IMG/VR virus record: IMGVR_UViG_3300035698_010492
Coordinates: 1-21,267 of that record
Length of the DNA: 21,267 nucleotides
From: a virus
Direction: 5' to 3' (one strand)
The translations under genes and the position numbers were made by a program. A model generated the notes under the pieces. It had not been told where the DNA came from and did no database searches. It saw only the letters and a program-made list of their open reading frames with translations. This document shows positions 3,147 through 19,555 of the stretch, one piece after another; the first letter of the stretch is position 1; each line of letters starts with the position of its first letter.

Positions 3147-3956
3147 TTATTCATCTTTTTTCTCCTCAGGATCTAAAGGTTTTATATCAGCAAGTTTTTC
3201 TTCTACATCTGTGTTTATTATCTCTTGTTGGTCATTATCAGGATATTGTTCTCACATTACACTATCATCAGTCATAACTGATTGATCTGATAGTAATGCT
3301 TTCTCTAAATCTACTGATAGAGGAGCGTATTTTGATAACAATAGCTTCAATACAGTCTTTTGTGCCATAGTGTCAAATTCATCTTTCCATAATCAATATC
3401 ATTTTTTATATGATTGGGAGAACTTCATTCAATGTTTCTTCATATCATCTACTGTCATATACATAGTCTTCTCAAATCATTCATTCAGTTGGAAATACGC
3501 AGCATATCATATAGGATCTCACTCGGCAGGAATATCAAAGTCAAACACAAATCAAGTAAGAGGATTGTTACCAGTAAGCTGTCATGGATAGATAGCACAT
3601 ACAGAGATATGCTTAAATCTTCATGATCTTTGGGCGAGCTGGATAAATCATTTATACCCTATTTGGAATTGTGCCTGTACTCAACTTTTAGAGTTGTATG
3701 GTACAATATACGCAAATCATAGATTAGGATTGATAGGCAACTTTATCGAAGCTGCTGTTACTGCTGCCATAAATACTGATTGAGGATCTGCTTTTTTCAA
3801 CAAATCATTTTGTGATACTATAGTCATTACAGTAGTAAGAAACGATCAGGCATTCTCCTTTAATAGATCATCGAATTTCTTTTTGATCGCATCAGTCTTT
3901 AATAGAGCGATAGCATCTTTCTTCTCTACAATTGGAGTCTCTTCTGTTGCTGTCAT
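3147..3956 (-). CDS. recT: RecT-family single-strand annealing protein
   Basis: A 269-aa protein, normal length for RecT. The core at about residues 57-110 has the family's characteristic run: PQSVFMAAVTAASIKLPI, then NPNLGFAYIVPYN, then VQAQFQIGYKGFIQLAQRSG and FKHI. A later WKDEFDTMAQKTVLKLLLSKY segment and an acidic, Lys-rich tail are also typical. By hand count about 15 of its 17 glycines are TGA, including those in NLGFAY and YKGF. RecT proteins anneal and exchange single strands behind a partner exonuclease, here the PD-(D/E)XK protein downstream. The start is 2 nt after the stop of a 36-aa peptide gene, suggesting translational coupling near the promoter-proximal end of the leftward block. 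Confidence 0.95.
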
Positions 3957-6033: not shown

Positions 6034-7575
6034 ATGGAAGATACTCAGCAAGATATACAAGAGCTGGAAGATAAATTGTCGTCAAAGCGATGGAGAATGA
6101 CATCCTGAGAGTTCTATAAGATCAAGAATAAAGAATGAGAGATCGTTTCATTTGTTCCTAATAAGTTCCAACTATACTATCTCAAAAACAAGCATACAAG
6201 AAATATAATACTCAAAGCTAGGCAGATGGGATTTTCTACTGTGATACAACTAGATTATTTGGATGATGCGTTATTTAACTCTAATTTCTCCGTAGGTATA
6301 ATCGCCCAAGATAGAGAAACTGCTGGGATTATCAGAAAGGATAAGATCGAAGTCGCCTTAGATAATCTTCCTGATTTTGTGAAATGATACCGAGAATATG
6401 ATAAACAAAACTCCAAAGAGATAACTTTCAGTAACGGATCATCAATATATGTTTCTAATTCTTTCAGATGATGAACACTCCAAAGACTCCATATCTCAGA
6501 GTATGGAAAGATCTGTGCTAAACGACCAGCAAAAGCTGATGAGATAAGAACATGAGCGATCGAAGCTGTCGCACAATGACAAGAAGTTACGATAGAGTCT
6601 ACAGCCGAATGAAACGACTGAGACTTTTTCGATAAATGTGAAGAGTATTACAAAATGATATGAAAACCTCTTGCTCCTTTGGATTATAAATTCCTATTCT
6701 TTCCTCGATGGCTAGAAACAACTTATTCTTATGAATGAGTCGTTGTTACTATTCCACAAGATGTAGAGGTATATTTCAAGAAGCTAGAAGATGAATACTG
6801 AGTAGAGCTTACCCAATGACAGAAGAACTGGTATTATCTGAAACTCAAACAACTCAGAGACCAAATGAAGAGAGAATATCCATCAGTATACAAAGAAGCG
6901 TTTGAAGTTGCTATTGAATGATCATATCTCCAAACAGAGATCAATATGATGTATCAAGACAATAGACTCACCTCAGTTCCTTATGACCACAATCTTCCAG
7001 TCTATACTTCATGGGATATATGATGAGCATGATGATGAGATGATATGACTGTGCGATTTTTCCAAATGTATTGATTTGAGATAAGATGGATCGACTATCG
7101 AGAATGATCCTGATATTCTATGACATATGTTCTAGAAAACATAATAGACCAAAAACCATATAACTATGCTACTCATATATGACCACATGATATGAGAGTA
7201 CACTCACTTATGACAGGAAAGACTAGGATCGATAGTGCCAAAGATTTGTGATACGACTTTACTCTTGTTGGATCTCCTGCTGGTGCTGTATCAAATAGAA
7301 TTGATCTTATGAGAAAGTTATTCCCAAGGAGTTGGTTTGATCATAAGAAATGTTTGCCTTGAATTAACAAATTAAAAAACTACAAGCGTAAACGAGACGA
7401 CACAAATGGATGTCGAACTGATCAAGTTCATAAGAATGGATCTCAACATACTGCTGATTGATTTGGATATGGATGTCAGTATATTGACGAGACTCTTCTC
7501 GAGAAGATTAGTGAGAAGAAAGAGACTCATGAGAATATGTGAATGTATAGCCAGTTCAAAGAGTCCATCAAATAG
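6034..7575 (+). CDS. terL: Terminase large subunit
   Basis: A 513-aa packaging ATPase-nuclease of normal length. The N-terminal ATPase domain has the adenine-region segment FVPNKFQLYYL (about 40-50), a Walker A-like KARQMGFST (61-69), a Walker B-like LHISEYGK (about 152-159) and a TIESTAEG coupling motif (about 187-194). The C-terminal RNase H-like nuclease begins at TSWDIGGAGGGDD (325-337; Asp328 a likely metal ligand), followed by HIGPHDMRVH (about 381-390) and HTADGFGYG near residue 480. Glycines of WDIGGAGGG are mostly TGA (five codons within 18 nt). By hand count about 27 of 39 glycines are TGA. It ends at TAG, showing that UAG is a stop here. Confidence 0.95.
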
Positions 7576-7869: not shown

Positions 7870-9990
7870 ATGGCAAAAGGAAAATCATCATACAAAAAAA
7901 CATGACCTGAGTGAGATGAGATTGTTGTCGAAGAAGTTATCACAGAGGAATGAATAAACAAACAAAAGAAACTCAGAGAGAAGCTATCTAATAAAAAATC
8001 AACAGGAGATGATGGTTGATATAGTATATGAGAGCTTCATTGAAAGACTTTTACGGAAGAGTCGATCAAAGATGAAGATGTAGATGTAGATAAGATAGTA
8101 GCAACAGTAATAAAAGAGCTTAAAAAGACCGAAGACTCTCTGGGCGAAGTTCTATCTACTTATGCTGATGTCAAAAAATGATACCTCGATCTAGAAAATA
8201 GATCAGATCCTTTCTATGTAGATTACAATCTTCTCTATAATAATGTCGATATGCTTATGGCGTTATCGTATAGTAATGAGATGAAAGTTATGTTTACTGG
8301 AACAGATGAGTCTGATATGGACAATAGTAATATCATCACCAAGACAGCTGAGTATGATGCTAGAGATGAGTTATGACTTGACCTATTAGAATATGAGCTA
8401 TGAATGGATAAATACCTATGATGAGTCGCTGTTGCTGAACGAGATTGATGGAACGAGTATACAAATGCTCCTATCGCTATTGTTATGCCAGTAGAACATT
8501 ATAGACCTGATCCTGATGGACGATGACACGCTGATAAATATAGACGACATGGATGTCATTGAAAGATGACTAAACAGCAGATGATAGATCCATGAAACTT
8601 CTTCAATATAGATGATGTTGTCGATACAGTATGGAACGATGACAAAACAAATACCATGAGTGACAATTGATCCAATATATCACTACAAGCTGATCAATCA
8701 ACAGATGAGTCTGCTTATTTTGTAGTATACAATCACTTCGGAACTAAATCAGATTGAACAAAATATCTTGCTACACTTGCCAACTCATGATCTCTATTGA
8801 TCAGATATGTAGAGCTGGACTACAAGATATGAGGAAAACCTGTATTCCCATTATCGCTAGACTTTTGGAAACCTAAAAAATGATTTCCTATGGGGATCAA
8901 ACCATATGATATTACTAATAGAAAACAGAGAGTACTATCATTGATCCTTAATCTAGCAGTCAAACAATCAGTAAGATCATCACTCGGTAACCATATCATA
9001 GTAGATGAGAAAGCTGTAAAGAATAAAGCACAACTATCTCAGCTATCAGAGTTTCCTGAGGTAATACTTGTTGATACAAATGGATGAGAAAAGAATGTAA
9101 ACAATATAGTAACAGAACTCCAAAGAAGCTGAGTACCACAAGATAATATCACAGTAGAGAATAGGATCAAACAGCTCAACTATGAAGAGACAAGTATATG
9201 ACCTAATCAATTGTGACTATCTCCTGAATGAAATCAAACAGCTACTGAGATAAGAGACAACGCAACTAATGCTAATGTCAGACTCTCTCTATCGACAAGA
9301 GTCGCTCAGATATTCTATAAAGACTTCCGAAGAAAATGGCTCATGATGTATCAGTACCATTTCCCAAAGGATTGAAAGAAGCAAGTTGTTATCTCTAGAG
9401 AGTATGGTGATAAGTATATGACATTTGAGCATAAGTATCTTACATTTAGCTGAGATCCTCATATCAAGATAGTGGCAAAGACTGAGTTTGAGATGAACAG
9501 CAGAAAACTATTCTCTAATCATGTTGTCCTACACTCATATATAGAAAAACTTGCCATGATGCCTTATGTTCCTTTGGAAGTAAGAATGTCTATGAGGAAA
9601 GCATTGAGACTTCTATGATACCCTGAGGATGAGATCCTAAGATATGTGAAAGAGTCTGTCGAAGAGATGGAAGCAAAAGCACAACTATATCTCCTTAATG
9701 ATAACGAGAAATTGGATGAGCTAGTTCCTAATCAGATAGATGAACACCATGAAGACTATATCGAAGTATATAGACAAGCGAAGCCAACAGAAGCTACAAG
9801 ATTTGCTGTATTGGATAGGATCAGGATGTTGAAACAGAGGAAGAAAAAAGATAGAGAAGCAGAGAAACAACAAGTCCTTGACAACGGACAATGAAACGCT
9901 AATACTAATAGTATGTCTAATCAAATGACAGCTGATATGATCAGCAAAGGTGGGCAAGAATGATCAACTCTGAAAGATATTCAGATGTAA
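7870..9990 (+). CDS. Portal protein
   Basis: A 706-aa protein directly downstream of the terminase genes. That length fits the large portals of podoviruses (P22/N4-like) better than the roughly 450-500 aa of siphophages. It is mainly helical and charged. Portal-like segments include an N-terminal Glu/Lys region, YLDLENRSDPFYVDYNLLY (about 107-125), a middle domain with TNANVRLSLSTRVAQIFYKD followed by FRRKWLMMYQYHF (about 465-500), and a C-terminal coiled tail (MLKQRKKKDREAEKQQ). By hand count about 30 of 46 glycines are TGA. Family assignment rests on position, size and this general pattern rather than on a diagnostic motif. The portal forms the dodecameric ring through which DNA is packaged and ejected. 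Confidence 0.75.
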
Positions 9991-12247: not shown

Positions 12248-12883
12248 ATGACAGTTGATCAATTGCTATCATCAGGCGTAAATGATGAAGAGCTGGACAC
12301 AGGCGTAAATGTGTTAGACGAAGAAGAAACTGATTTGGACAATGAAGAAATGGAAGATGACGAAGAAGAAACTAATGATTGAGATCAATCCCAAAAGAAA
12401 GATCGAAAGAAGAAGTATCATTCTACTGTCACCATCCAAAATAGGAGAATATCACAGCTAGAGAAAGAATTGGCTAATAAAGCTAAGGAAGATGATCTCA
12501 GCGACGATGATCTCGCATTACTTCAAGAGAAGTATGATGAACAAGATCTCAATGTTATCAAGAAGCTGATCAAAAAAGAAGCTAGAAACTTGATCGACAA
12601 TGACAAAAGTTCTTCACTACAACAAAGGGAGTTATGAATATTCTTCAAAAAACATCCTGAAATTACAGAACCTGAACTCAAACATGTAAAGGATCTACAA
12701 AATCAATATGGATATAGTCTTGAAAAAGCGTACTCAGTATTGTTTGGTAGAAATGATACAGAAGACAAGAGATCAAACCGTTCTGTCAATAGCTTTGGAT
12801 GAGATGCTAAATGATGATCAAAGTCGCAAGACTGAGGGAATGATGAAGCGTACAATGATATGGTAAAGAACTATACTAAATAA
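12248..12883 (+). CDS. Capsid scaffolding protein
   Basis: A 211-aa protein directly upstream of the major capsid gene, the usual place for a scaffold. The N-terminus is highly acidic (LDEEETDLDNEEMEDDEEE, about residues 23-41), followed by a basic KKDRKKKYHSTVTIQNRRIS and a long helical/coiled-coil stretch (ISQLEKELANKAKEDDLSDD to LNVIKKLIKKEARNLI). The Gly/Ser/Asn-rich tail (NSFGGDAKGGSKSQDGG) leads to a short C-terminal helix, as in scaffolds whose C-terminus binds capsid subunits. About half of its 12 glycines are TGA. Identification rests on position and composition; scaffold sequences are poorly conserved. Confidence 0.78.
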
Positions 12884-12895
12884 AAAATAAACAGA

Positions 12896-12928
12896 TGGTA
12901 AGTAGAGGTGATTTTTATTTGCTTACCA
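12896..12928 (+). promoter_or_regulatory. Hairpin with Shine-Dalgarno-like loop before the capsid start
   Basis: TGGTAAG (12896-12902) and CTTACCA (12922-12928) form a 7-bp stem ending 9 nt before the capsid ATG at 12938. The loop contains AGAGGTGAT (12904-12912), a good anti-16S complement and rare in this window. It is about 25 nt from the ATG, too far for ordinary use. It could serve standby ribosome binding, or be chance. Confidence 0.35.
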
Positions 12929-12937
12929 AGCAATACA

Positions 12938-13900
12938 ATGATGAATTATAGTGGATTAAAATCCAGCTCATCTACTTCTGACAAGACTTTTCTTGACAAG
13001 GTAGTTAGAAGAGTATTAGAAAATTTTGAACCAAATCTTATCTTCAACCAGTTTGGAGAAGCTCCTATCTCAGAAGTAGGTGCTGACAATATAGTTTGGG
13101 CTAAGTTTCCTGCTTTGACTTACAGTCCTGCTCAGGCAGAATTGATCGATGGAGTAACTCCAAACGATGTATCTTTCACAGCAGAAACAATCTCAGTACA
13201 ATCAAAACAATATGGAATGTATGTTATCCTTACTGACAAAGTAAAGTTGAAACAACTTTTCAATCTTTCTATGATTGTATCTGAAATTCTTGGAGACAAT
13301 ATGTCTAGAATATGTGATAATGTTATTCAGAATGAAGTAACTGATAATGCTACAAATAGAGTATTGGCAGCTACAACAGCTGGTGGAACTAGAGCAGCAA
13401 ACAGAGCAGCTATCGGAGCTACAAACATTATGTTTACTTACGATATTGCTTGTGTTGCTACTAAATTGGCAGCAGCAAACGCTCCTAAATTCGCAGCAGG
13501 TGCTTATGGTGGAATACTTCACCCATTTGTATCTCACCGAATTAAAACAGAGTCTGGTGCTGGTGGATGGCTTCAAATCAAGCAGTATACTACTGCTGGA
13601 CAAGATGACATTTACAAAGGAGAAATCGGTATGATCCATGGTGTAAGAATTATGGAGTCTGCTAATGTAAAATCATACGCTTCTACTGTAACAGTATACC
13701 CATCTACTTTCTTTGGAAAAAGAGCTTATGGAGTATCTGAACTACAATCTATGGAAACAATTATACATGGATTTGGATCAGCTGGAACAGCTGATGCCTT
13801 GAACCAAAGAATGACAATAGGTGTGAAGAAATCATTTGCTCCTAAAATTCTTAATCAAGCATCTATAGTAGTGTTTGAATGTGCTGGAGCAGTCGTATAA
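12938..13900 (+). CDS. Major capsid protein, N4-gp56 family
   Basis: A 320-aa protein from the first ATG (another ATG follows at 12941; GTG 12908 is less likely). It follows the N4-gp56-type pattern: NFEPNLIFNQFGEAP near the N-terminus, VGADNIVWAKFPAL, ELIDGVTPNDVSFTAETISV, QSKQYGMYVILTDKV, NATNRVLAATTAGGT, ILHPFVSHRI, GEIGMIHGVRIMES, and C-terminal VYPSTFFGKRAYGVSEL with IHGFGSAGTADALNQRM. It builds the HK97-fold icosahedral shell with the scaffold encoded just upstream. It is the only large gene in the window without any in-frame TGA: all of about 26 glycines are GGA/GGT-type. That implies selection against the recoded codon in the most heavily translated late gene. Confidence 0.93.
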   Translation: MMNYSGLKSSSSTSDKTFLDKVVRRVLENFEPNLIFNQFGEAPISEVGADNIVWAKFPALTYSPAQAELIDGVTPNDVSFTAETISVQSKQYGMYVILTDKVKLKQLFNLSMIVSEILGDNMSRICDNVIQNEVTDNATNRVLAATTAGGTRAANRAAIGATNIMFTYDIACVATKLAAANAPKFAAGAYGGILHPFVSHRIKTESGAGGWLQIKQYTTAGQDDIYKGEIGMIHGVRIMESANVKSYASTVTVYPSTFFGKRAYGVSELQSMETIIHGFGSAGTADALNQRMTIGVKKSFAPKILNQASIVVFECAGAVV

Positions 13901-13933: not shown

Positions 13934-14728
13934 ATGACACAATTGGACTTGAAACAAGTATCTCGCAAGTCTCGTGACCTTAATATGTCTGCGAGTCAAG
14001 TGATTGATAACTTTACTGATAGAGCGTTCGCTATGTGACCTCTATGAAATGTTCTTCCAGTAACAACTGATGCCCTTACAAATTTTGTAAGAACACCTAA
14101 TTCAACTTTATATGTAAGAAATATCAACGCTCAAACTCTTCTTGCTCCAACAACTGTTGCGACTGGATTGTCTATCGCTGGGGATCTTACTTCATGAGAT
14201 GGATTTGATATTGGATTGAACGAAGCAAACCAAGCTGACTCTAGATTTGTATTTGAAATCGGAGCTGAACCAGTTGGTTTCTATATTGAAGCTAGATTTA
14301 CAATTTCTGATGTATCAGGAGTTGCTGGATTATTGCTAGGATTTAGAAAACTTGGTGCTTCTGCTGCTGCTAGAACTTCTTATACTGATTATGCTTACGC
14401 AGCAATTGTATGAGCTAAGATCGAAACAGCTGGTAGATTGAACAACGCAACTGAAACTCTTGTAGACTCTACTGATGTTATTGCTGACACAAACGCAATC
14501 ACATTGAGAGTTGAAGTAACTTCTGATGGAAAGGCAACTTTCTTTACGAGTTATGATCCAACACTAGATGTATTGGACACAAGTGGTAAATTATACCAAC
14601 CAAAAGTATCTCAAACATTTACTTTTGATAGTGGTGATATGGTAGTGCCAAACATGAGATTTATTCAGGCTTCTGATGTATGTGATACATTGGTTGTGAA
14701 CTATCTTAAATGTGGGTATCTTAACTAA
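13934..14728 (+). CDS. Structural protein after the capsid gene (decoration/minor head candidate)
   Basis: A 264-aa protein, rich in Ala, Thr, Asp and beta-prone residues, with few charged helices. After an N-terminal helical part (LDLKQVSRKSRDLNMSASQV) it looks like a beta-sandwich: FVFEIGAEPVGFYIEARFTI, SDVSGVAGLLLGFRKLG, AITLRVEVTSDGKATFFTSY, FDSGDMVVPNMRFIQASDVC. The repeated F/V-E-x and D-G-x-x-x-F-F pattern resembles jelly-roll/concanavalin-like decoration or head-fibre proteins. Only 4 of about 19 glycines are TGA, next lowest after the capsid protein, which suggests an abundant virion protein. It starts 33 nt after the capsid stop and is followed by a perfect 9-bp hairpin. Confidence 0.68.
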
Positions 14729-14791: not shown

Positions 14792-15601
14792 ATGGGAATA
14801 GTATCGGATGTTATTGCTGCTGCGTATATCGAAGCTGGGCTAAGTGATGTAAATGTAGTTGCTGCTCCTGCTATACGCTATTGTGATGATATATACCAAG
14901 AGTTGATCGACATAAAGAAACTCACAAACGAAGATTATATAAGAAAGACATCGAAGAGTAATACAATAGTATATACGAATGTATATGCTCTTCCTGCTGA
15001 TTTTGAAAAGATGAAAGAGGTGTCTGTGAAATACCAAGCATCATGATACGATCTGCGAGTCACCGGTACTGCTTATACAGCATGACAAAGAGTATCTGAC
15101 TCAGGTAAAGATTATGTGTGTCTAGCAAATCATACAGCATGAGCGACATTTGCTGGTGATTCTGATAATCGAAAACAAGTATATATATGATACAAAGTAT
15201 GTACTCCAAGTACAATAGACTTCAAATTTCCTGATGACTATAACCAGTTATGAGATTTTGATGCTCCGAAATATTATTATTTCAATGACAATCTATATAT
15301 ATATCCTTTCCCACAAGAAGCTGTAGTAGAATGAGTATTATTTGATTATATACCTGAAATAACAACTCTTACAACAAGTACAGATGATGCTGACATATAT
15401 ATAGAACCAAAACTTGTGAAACATTGGATCATGTGAACAGCAGCGAAATTTAGATGACATGTAAGAGACTTCGATTGACAGCTACAATTGGAAGCAAGAT
15501 ACGAAACAGGTAAGATGAAATGTGAGGATCGATGGATAAGTAGACATTACTGACCATTACAAGAACACTTACCGTCATCTTTACTTAGATATATGAGGTA
15601 G
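14792..15601 (+). CDS. Head-tail connector/adaptor protein with carbohydrate-binding-like insertion
   Basis: A 269-aa protein. The N-terminal helices (MGIVSDVIAAAYIEAGLSDV, CDDIYQELIDIKKLTNEDYI) and the LYIYPFPQEAVVEGVLFDYI element, followed by helical IEPKLVKHWIMGTAAKFR, are the arrangement seen in phage head-tail connector or adaptor proteins (gp6/gp4-like). Residues about 88-130 look inserted: TGTAYTAGQRVSDSGKDYVC followed by LANHTAGATFAGD. This matches the Y-x-x-G-x-x-V-x-x-x-G-x-x-Y pattern of carbohydrate-binding (CBM5/12-like) modules often found on virion surfaces. About 10 of 16 glycines are TGA. It ends at TAG one nt before the next start. Confidence 0.65.
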
Positions 15602-17044: not shown

Positions 17045-19555
17045 ATGGCAACTCTTCCTCAGATATGACAGCAATGAAACAACTTTACTTTCAATAACCA
17101 ACAGTTTAATTCTAAATCTGCTGCTGCTAAAGCACAGACTAGATGGATCAATACAACATGATGGAAACCTGATGTATGAGAGACCATAAAGAAAGCTGCT
17201 GCGAACAATGTATCATCATCAACAATAGCAAAAGCAGCATGAACTGCTGTCGCAAAAGCTGGCAATCTTCCACAAAACCAAACAGCACAAGCACAAGAGA
17301 CTGTAAAATCATTACAGAATATTTCTAAAATATGAGAAAATATACAAGATCCAAATAATCCAAATCCTGAAAATCCTACTGATAACTGAACAGAATGAGC
17401 ATCATGAGTTGTTACTGAACTAGATCCAAACACAACAGGTGAAAATGCTCCTGCTGCTATTGATCCGGCAACATGACTTCCTGCTCAATGATCTGCTGAT
17501 GCTTGACAATGATGAGCTGCTTGACAATCTAATGCTGCTGGTGGATGATGAAGTTCTGCTATACCATCACAAAGCAACGCATGATGATCTGCCTGATGAG
17601 GTGGATGAGTCAATGGATGAAGTTCTACTGTATGATGAGTATGAGCAGGAAATGCTATGATGATGTGATCTGACTCTAGTATATGAGACACTATGCCAAA
17701 TGCTAATGCTCCTATAGCTGATCAATCAGCGATGAACGCACAATGAGCGACAATAGACCAATGAAATATAAACAACATAAAACAAGACCAAAATCTTTGA
17801 CTTTCAAACTCTCCTGATAGTCCATTTTGGAATAAGTTCTGAAATCCTGCGATAGATCAAGAAACATGAATACCATGATATATGAATGAGCGTAATAAAG
17901 TTATAGCTTCTCAACTGATGTTGAGCAATCCTAATATGAAGTCAATGTCTGATGCTACTAGAAAGCAATCGATCATCGAAGACATAGTGAGAAGACAAGG
18001 GAAAGAACTCGATCCTGCTATTATGGACTGGTATCAAAACACAGCGAACACAATCAATAACCTTATTACTAGACAGATCCCACCATATACTTCTAATGAC
18101 TTCTTTGGGATGATGCTCAAAGGAGAAAGTGTATCAGAAGAAATGACTGAGAACAATCAAAATCCTAGTTATATGAACGCAAAGAGTAGGTTTAACAACC
18201 TAAAAACTTTCTCGTCTATGAATGTAAATGATCTTGCGAACCAAATAAAATCAGGAAGACTCAACCAATGAAGTGTTGGATGGAACGATCTTATAAATAA
18301 AGGTATGTGACAGATCCTGAATGATGCGAACGCAATAAATAATACAACTACTGGAAACAGTATAGTAAACAAAGTTCTTTCGGAAGCGTTTGGATTTAGT
18401 TCGGACATATCTCTTGCTCTCCAAGAAAGTGGAGTAGTAGATTTTCTAGGTACTGGACTTGAATGAGCATTGAGTCTAAAGATTTTCCAAACAATGACAG
18501 AAGATAAATTACCAACAGTATGAGCATATCTAGCAGCTGATGATGATGTACAAGCAGCAAAGACAGCATCTAGAGAGTCAGAAGCAGAACTCAATAAACT
18601 ATGAGATGAGATAAACGCTTTCTCTGATGATATAAAAACAAAAGTAGTAGAGAGATGATGAGAAGCAACCGGAGATCCTTTCTTAGAGTCTTATATTGTA
18701 GAGAAAACAAAACCTTTCGTAAGAAAACGAGAAGCGTTGAACGGACAATACAAAAACCAAATAGCGAAACTAGAGGATGCGACAGAGAACGCAAAACTTG
18801 CTTTCGAGATAAAAGAGTACAACAAGAACATGGAGATCAAATGATATGAATTTATATTGAACTCTATAAATAGCAATAAACAAGCAAAAGCATCAGCTGA
18901 AAAAGCACAATACGATATGGCAAAAGACGAGAGAGACTTCGCATATAAAGTTGCTAACGATCAAAGATGATATGAATTGGATCTAGCAAAGTTTAGAAAA
19001 GCTTGATCTAGTGGATGAACTCCTAGATCATCAGCAAATGATATCATACAATGAATATATAATTGATCTATAAAATCGACTAATGTATTCAATAAAAAGA
19101 CTCTAGCAAGTCTATGACTATCTGATATGTCGAGAGAGTGAGTAGTATGAACCCTTACAAACGCTTTATTCTCAGAAAACTTGTCTAAAAAATCTAGTAT
19201 ATGAGAGATGTCCACAGCTGTGAATGCTATAAAGACTGCTTTTGGTGATGACTACAAAGAGAGTAAGGACTATCTAGCGTATCTGAATAATACAGTATGA
19301 TGACCTAGAGCATTGAATTATGTTCGAGCGAATTTTGATGATGTATTTTGAGATTGAGCTACTCCAACAGAATACGCATCAGCAATAAGCTTGGCAGCAT
19401 GAGAGACTGATATATCAAAATCACAACTAATAACTGACACCCTTATAGATAAATTATGAAGAAGTTGAGCGAATAGTGTTTTAGATCAATTGTGATTGAA
19501 AAAGAGTAAGACAAAAGTATGAAAGGTTATATCAGCACTAAATCCATTTGACTAA
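17045..19555 (+). CDS. 836-aa virion/internal protein with TGA-coded Gly-rich linker
   Basis: An 836-aa protein. The N-terminal 80 residues are Asn/Gln/Ala-rich. Residues about 138-222 are a low-complexity Gly/Ser/Ala/Asn linker in which about 19 glycines are TGA, often paired (AGGSAGGGGGVNGGSS). The middle is helical (ASQLMLSNPNMKSMSDATRK, ITRQIPPYTSNDFFGMMLKG). A long coiled-coil stretch at about residues 500-640 includes KTASRESEAELNKLGDEINA, REALNGQYKNQIAKLEDATE and YDMAKDERDFAYKVANDQRG. The C-terminus is ALNPFD. Its size, position after the tail-type gene and coiled coil fit a podovirus internal or ejection protein; a tape-measure-like role is less likely. With the standard code only small fragments would be seen. 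Confidence 0.62.

Follow-up and report, generated by a model that had tools for sequence, protein, structure and literature searches.

The window, by which we mean the whole 21,267-base stretch of an IMG/VR virus record whose genes were called mechanically, is read in genetic code 25; in this reading its genes are open, they end at TAA or TAG, and 266 of the 456 Gly codons are TGA. When in-frame TGA codons of the window and its relatives were masked in alignments, the residue most frequently aligned with them was Gly. The signal was clear at conserved columns of relatives' capsids (Gly at 6/6 in L006 and 9/11 in L035) and weaker in the portal protein of the window (Gly 90, Asn 74). No suppressor tRNA was found within the window, nor was a tRNA-Gly(UCA) found there or in the searched stretches of its relatives. 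Two relatives of the capsid gene sit in contigs binned as Patescibacteria/Gracilibacteria MAGs. The features considered are collected in Table 1. Neither the putative scaffold gene nor the putative portal gene gave a family match, and the terminase large subunit (TerL), used as a single query, retrieved no relatives.

Table 1. Features of the window, with the share of TGA among their Gly codons.
Feature	Position	Strand	TGA/Gly	Remarks
RecT ssDNA-annealing protein	3147..3956	-	14/16	
Terminase large subunit (TerL)	6034..7575	+	27/39	control
Putative portal gene	7870..9990	+	30/46	control late gene; assigned by position and homology to relatives
Putative scaffold gene	12248..12883	+	6/12	assigned by position only
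Major capsid protein gene, code 25	12938..13900	+	0/26	17 GGA, 9 GGT
Gene after the capsid gene (orf13934), probable high-copy virion protein	13934..14728	+	4/19	codon index 0.24
SU10-adaptor-like protein	14792-15601			short CBM_5_12 (chitin-binding-like) match, residues 91-118
Large structural-region gene	17045..19555	+	60/83	control

The capsid gene was identified through PHROG 1357 "major head protein" (E=8e-34). Its match to Pfam Phage_capsid_3 was barely over the cut-off, the HK97 capsid profile PF05065 found no match in the window, and the AlphaFold model of the protein is poor (pLDDT 36). An alternative start is the in-frame GTG at 12908; no Gly codons lie between it and the ATG at 12938. 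A Shine-Dalgarno-like sequence, AGAGGTGA (window 12900-12940), is situated some 30 bases 5' of this ATG, and the GTG overlaps it.

Working from hand counts, a preliminary description of this DNA had reported no TGA among about 26 Gly codons of the capsid gene. The exact count is 0/26 as against 266/430 in the other genes of the window (Fisher, p=4.5e-11), and the hand counts for TerL, the portal, the scaffold, orf13934 and RecT (about 15/17) were likewise correct to within one or two codons (Table 1). Among the A-ending Gly codons, chosen for comparison as being one substitution apart, the ratio GGA:TGA is 17:0 in the capsid gene and 88:266 in the rest (p=1.8e-10). TGA trinucleotides are common in its two other forward frames (10 and 13), which rules out avoidance of TGA as a sequence motif and shows that the avoidance concerns the codon only.

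A search with a two-sequence capsid alignment yielded, besides 41 IMG/VR loci, two contigs from Patescibacteria MAGs. With duplicates removed there were 22 code-25 loci, that is, the window and 21 relatives. The TGA share of the capsid gene was below that of the rest of the locus in all 22 (Wilcoxon, 4.8e-7), with a Mantel-Haenszel odds ratio of 0.146 and 136 TGA codons observed in the capsids where 306 were expected. Since these loci span only about six capsid clades they do not represent 22 independent events. The depth of depletion differs from genome to genome: L003 has 0/28 in a genome at 61%, L006 14/26 at 81%, and L035 21/24 at 92%, the capsids of L035 and L036 having 81-88% TGA within genomes at 92-94%. 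In code-25 genomes we also found two prophages carrying unrelated capsids of the HK97 type; one is depleted (13/33 vs 0.74, p=1.8e-4) and the other, L271, is not (21/29 vs 0.64, p=0.53). Related capsids using TGA at the genome average, which would have spoken against the preliminary description, were thus not encountered among the 22 loci, and L271 is the marked exception. RecT relatives, sought as a route to further code-25 phages, were found in standard-code phages only (up to 54% identity), and so contributed no independent code-25 capsids.

The same pattern is present in code-25 bacteria, for which we used genomes of the class to which the Gracilibacteria MAG belongs. The TGA share of the EF-Tu gene is below that of its surroundings in 48 of 49 genomes (means 0.14 vs 0.44; Wilcoxon, 7e-15), so that a TGA-rich EF-Tu, which might have contradicted the preliminary description, occurs here only in one marked exception, G014 (35/38 TGA). 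Ribosomal protein L2 is intermediate, with TGA lower in 22 of 32 genomes (p=0.009) and not lower in ten. For a complete genome, G158 (1,343,103 bases), we calculated an EF-Tu-like codon index which omits Gly and was trained on the EF-Tu genes of other code-25 genomes, the complete genome being left out. TGA share falls as this index rises (rho -0.24, p=2e-11), from 0.59 in the lower three fifths of genes to 0.14 in the highest 2%. From their sequences we take the top-index genes to resemble those for EF-Tu, an S-layer-like protein, pilin, L1, L10, L11, EF-G, EF-Ts and ATP synthase subunits; given how the index was trained, EF-Tu itself can be expected to rank at the top.

In its non-Gly codons also the bias of the capsid gene tracks that of EF-Tu (rho 0.66, p=2e-6, 42 codons), ATA and CTA being likewise avoided. 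Within the window only the capsid gene (0.23) and orf13934 have a high index, all others, the scaffold gene among them, falling between -0.10 and 0.04. Over pooled phage genes the index correlates with TGA use (rho -0.50, p=7e-13), and among the remaining genes of the window, for example RecT and the scaffold, the two are unrelated (Spearman 0.03). As only two genes carry the signature, it is a step and not a gradient. Judged by codon content, then, the capsid gene and orf13934 are written like those genes of code-25 bacteria that stand highest in expression, and TGA avoidance is the strongest part of this signature; "highly expressed" is to be understood here in terms of gene identity and codon-based proxies. 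The earlier proposal that TGA use follows expected expression is upheld across the phages (22/22), for EF-Tu (48/49) and along the index in one genome, but the gradient it had described within the phage reduces to a two-gene step.

The homologs of orf13934 in L001 to L007 contain TGA at 0/24, 2/21, 1/21, 0/17, 0/21, 10/21 and 0/18 of their Gly codons, making this gene TGA-poor in seven of eight close phages (0-4 of 17-24). Its low-confidence model (pLDDT 53, pTM 0.60) resembles ConA-like beta-sandwich folds, the top match being Shewanella SO2946. We consider its predicted product likely to be a high-copy virion surface protein.

In our opinion the absence of TGA from the capsid gene would be explained by translational selection acting on the genes with the very highest expression, and on the sequence evidence we give this reading a probability of roughly 0.8. 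One might instead suppose that the gene was newly acquired from a standard-code phage and has yet to gain TGA codons. Such a TGA-free route does exist, in that the complete bacterial genome holds genes with no TGA and many GGC or GGG codons which resemble recent acquisitions; the capsid gene, unlike these, has neither GGC nor GGG. In the capsid tree, moreover, the window falls within a supported clade of eight code-25 phages, each with TGA-using genes elsewhere, while relatives with the standard code, 33-36% identical, group apart in a clade of their own. At the 20 Gly columns which are invariant in the eight phages GGA and GGT interchange freely and TGA occurs 11 times, ten of them in L006, which is nested among the TGA-poor capsids, and one in L005. 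Saturation of these silent sites with GGA/GGT swaps implies ample time for mutation, and recent acquisition therefore fails to explain the pattern. RecT, whose nearest found relatives are in standard-code phages, is yet the gene of the window richest in TGA. We regard recent acquisition as highly unlikely.

If UGA were misread, for instance as Trp by tRNA-Trp, it might be avoided where errors are costly, and proteomics of a BD1-5 bacterium did reveal single peptides with UGA read as Trp, Ala, Asp and Lys as against 40 with Gly (PMC4032931). The tRNA-Trp of the complete genome, however, has a normal 5-bp anticodon stem, and TGA is no rarer at conserved than at variable Gly sites (Akashi-type odds ratios of 1.05 in hosts, 1.14 in phages and 1.86 in the capsid, in a test weakened by the tendency of new Gly codons to arise as GGN). 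The earlier suggestion that UGA decoding is error-prone is accordingly not borne out, and an explanation from accuracy seems very unlikely. This lineage descends from users of the standard code, where UGA means stop; even so, early termination at this codon, or loss of ribosomes from it, appears very improbable as the cause. Exactly one PCRF release factor was found in 22 of 23 code-25 genomes and none in G014. Its motif, readable in 13 of the 22, was PxT (RF1-type) in every case with no SPF (RF2) motif among them; the other nine, including the complete genome, gave no motif in the scan. With only RF1-type factors seen, the residual termination which had been invoked is improbable, and the 5'-to-3' fall in TGA frequency which a rising cost of lost chains predicts was not observed. 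Lastly, it has been proposed for code 4 and code 15 phages that stop-codon recoding regulates late genes; regulation of this kind would go with a recoded stop enriched in late or lysis genes, a suppressor tRNA in the phage and a host with the standard code. TGA content does differ among the late genes of the window, but in the reverse direction: the gene for what is presumably the most abundant late protein lacks TGA, whereas it abounds in the genes for the portal and terminase and in the large tail-side genes. The window has no detected suppressor tRNA, and the hosts share the pattern. That recoding tunes late expression, as had also been suggested, is barely credible.

Under translational selection we would envisage that the one dedicated tRNA-Gly(UCA) reads UGA more slowly or less efficiently than tRNA-Gly(UCC) reads GGA and GGU. 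AT-biased mutation, for which GGA to TGA is one step, would have made TGA the majority codon where selection is weak, and the cost would suffice to purge it only from very highly translated genes such as those for the capsid, EF-Tu, the S-layer-like protein and pilin. The complete genome encodes one tRNA-Gly(UCC) and one tRNA-Gly(UCA), and no further tRNA-Gly, including one with a GCC anticodon, was found in it; a search of 20 genomes gave one full-length match to tRNA-Gly(UCA) in each, sharing 85-100% identity with the copy in the complete genome. This tRNA, proposed to be scarce, does have a single gene, but in the one complete genome the sole tRNA-Gly found for GGN codons has no more than one either. 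Their gene dosage being equal, copy number alone has no explanatory power, and it is slow decoding of UGA that we infer.

Across 20 code-25 genomes (L208-L227, 1501-1579) the D-loop of tRNA-Gly(UCA) is conserved, reading AAAAGAGTGA in most and lacking the usual GG, and variation in the acceptor and T stems is compensated. The GG-less D-loop is a possible cause of slow decoding. Extended to the whole UGA-Gly lineage and its viruses, the argument would be that UGA spread by mutation to become the majority codon and yet stayed non-optimal, perhaps by virtue of a slow tRNA-Gly(UCA) with an unusual D-loop, so that Gly codon choice reads out protein abundance; this we offer tentatively, at a little under even odds.

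UGA-Gly was reportedly first described by Campbell in 2013, a report lying outside our literature search, in which no account of TGA depletion in code-25 bacteria or phages was found. In classical translational selection, known from bacteria and phage capsids, proteins made in large amounts draw on a limited range of codons in common with the abundant proteins of the host; what is shunned here, by contrast, is a former stop codon that is also the most frequent Gly codon of the genome. In Blastocrithidia (PMC12153298) and in a ciliate (PMC10553269), strongly expressed genes contain fewer of the reassigned stop codons, and translational burden or inefficiency has been proposed. The resemblance is that genes presumed to stand highest in expression are poor in the reassigned codon. 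Blastocrithidia and the ciliate are eukaryotes, with UAR as Glu and UGA as Trp in the former and UAA and UAG reassigned in the latter, whereas we are dealing with bacteria and phages in which UGA is Gly and frequently outnumbers the other Gly codons taken together, no RF2 having been seen in the genomes where it could be looked for. Phages of Absconditabacteria/Gracilibacteria that use code 25, as their hosts do, with dense in-frame TGA read as Gly, have been described (PMC10746230; RSA-ATP1, PMC13059738), TGA use being treated at the genome level in the available portions of both papers. RSA-ATP1 is there reported to have a tRNA-Gly(TCA), whereas none was found in the window. PMC10746230 proposes a likeness between high TGA use and codon optimization; for the most expressed genes our results argue against that idea.

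These results indicate that reassignment of UGA to Gly was apparently driven by mutation and tolerated, rather than arising from a translational benefit. TGA depletion provides a simple marker of high expression in uncultured Patescibacteria and their phages, by which orf13934 is flagged. A capsid gene free of TGA looks standard-coded, so that assignment of the code from the capsid gene or from a short contig will mislead. TGA share could also serve to date transfers from standard-code bacteria: in G158, genes with no TGA and a mixed set of GGN codons, many of them GGC or GGG (e.g. 307107-310892), have the appearance of recent acquisitions from such bacteria.
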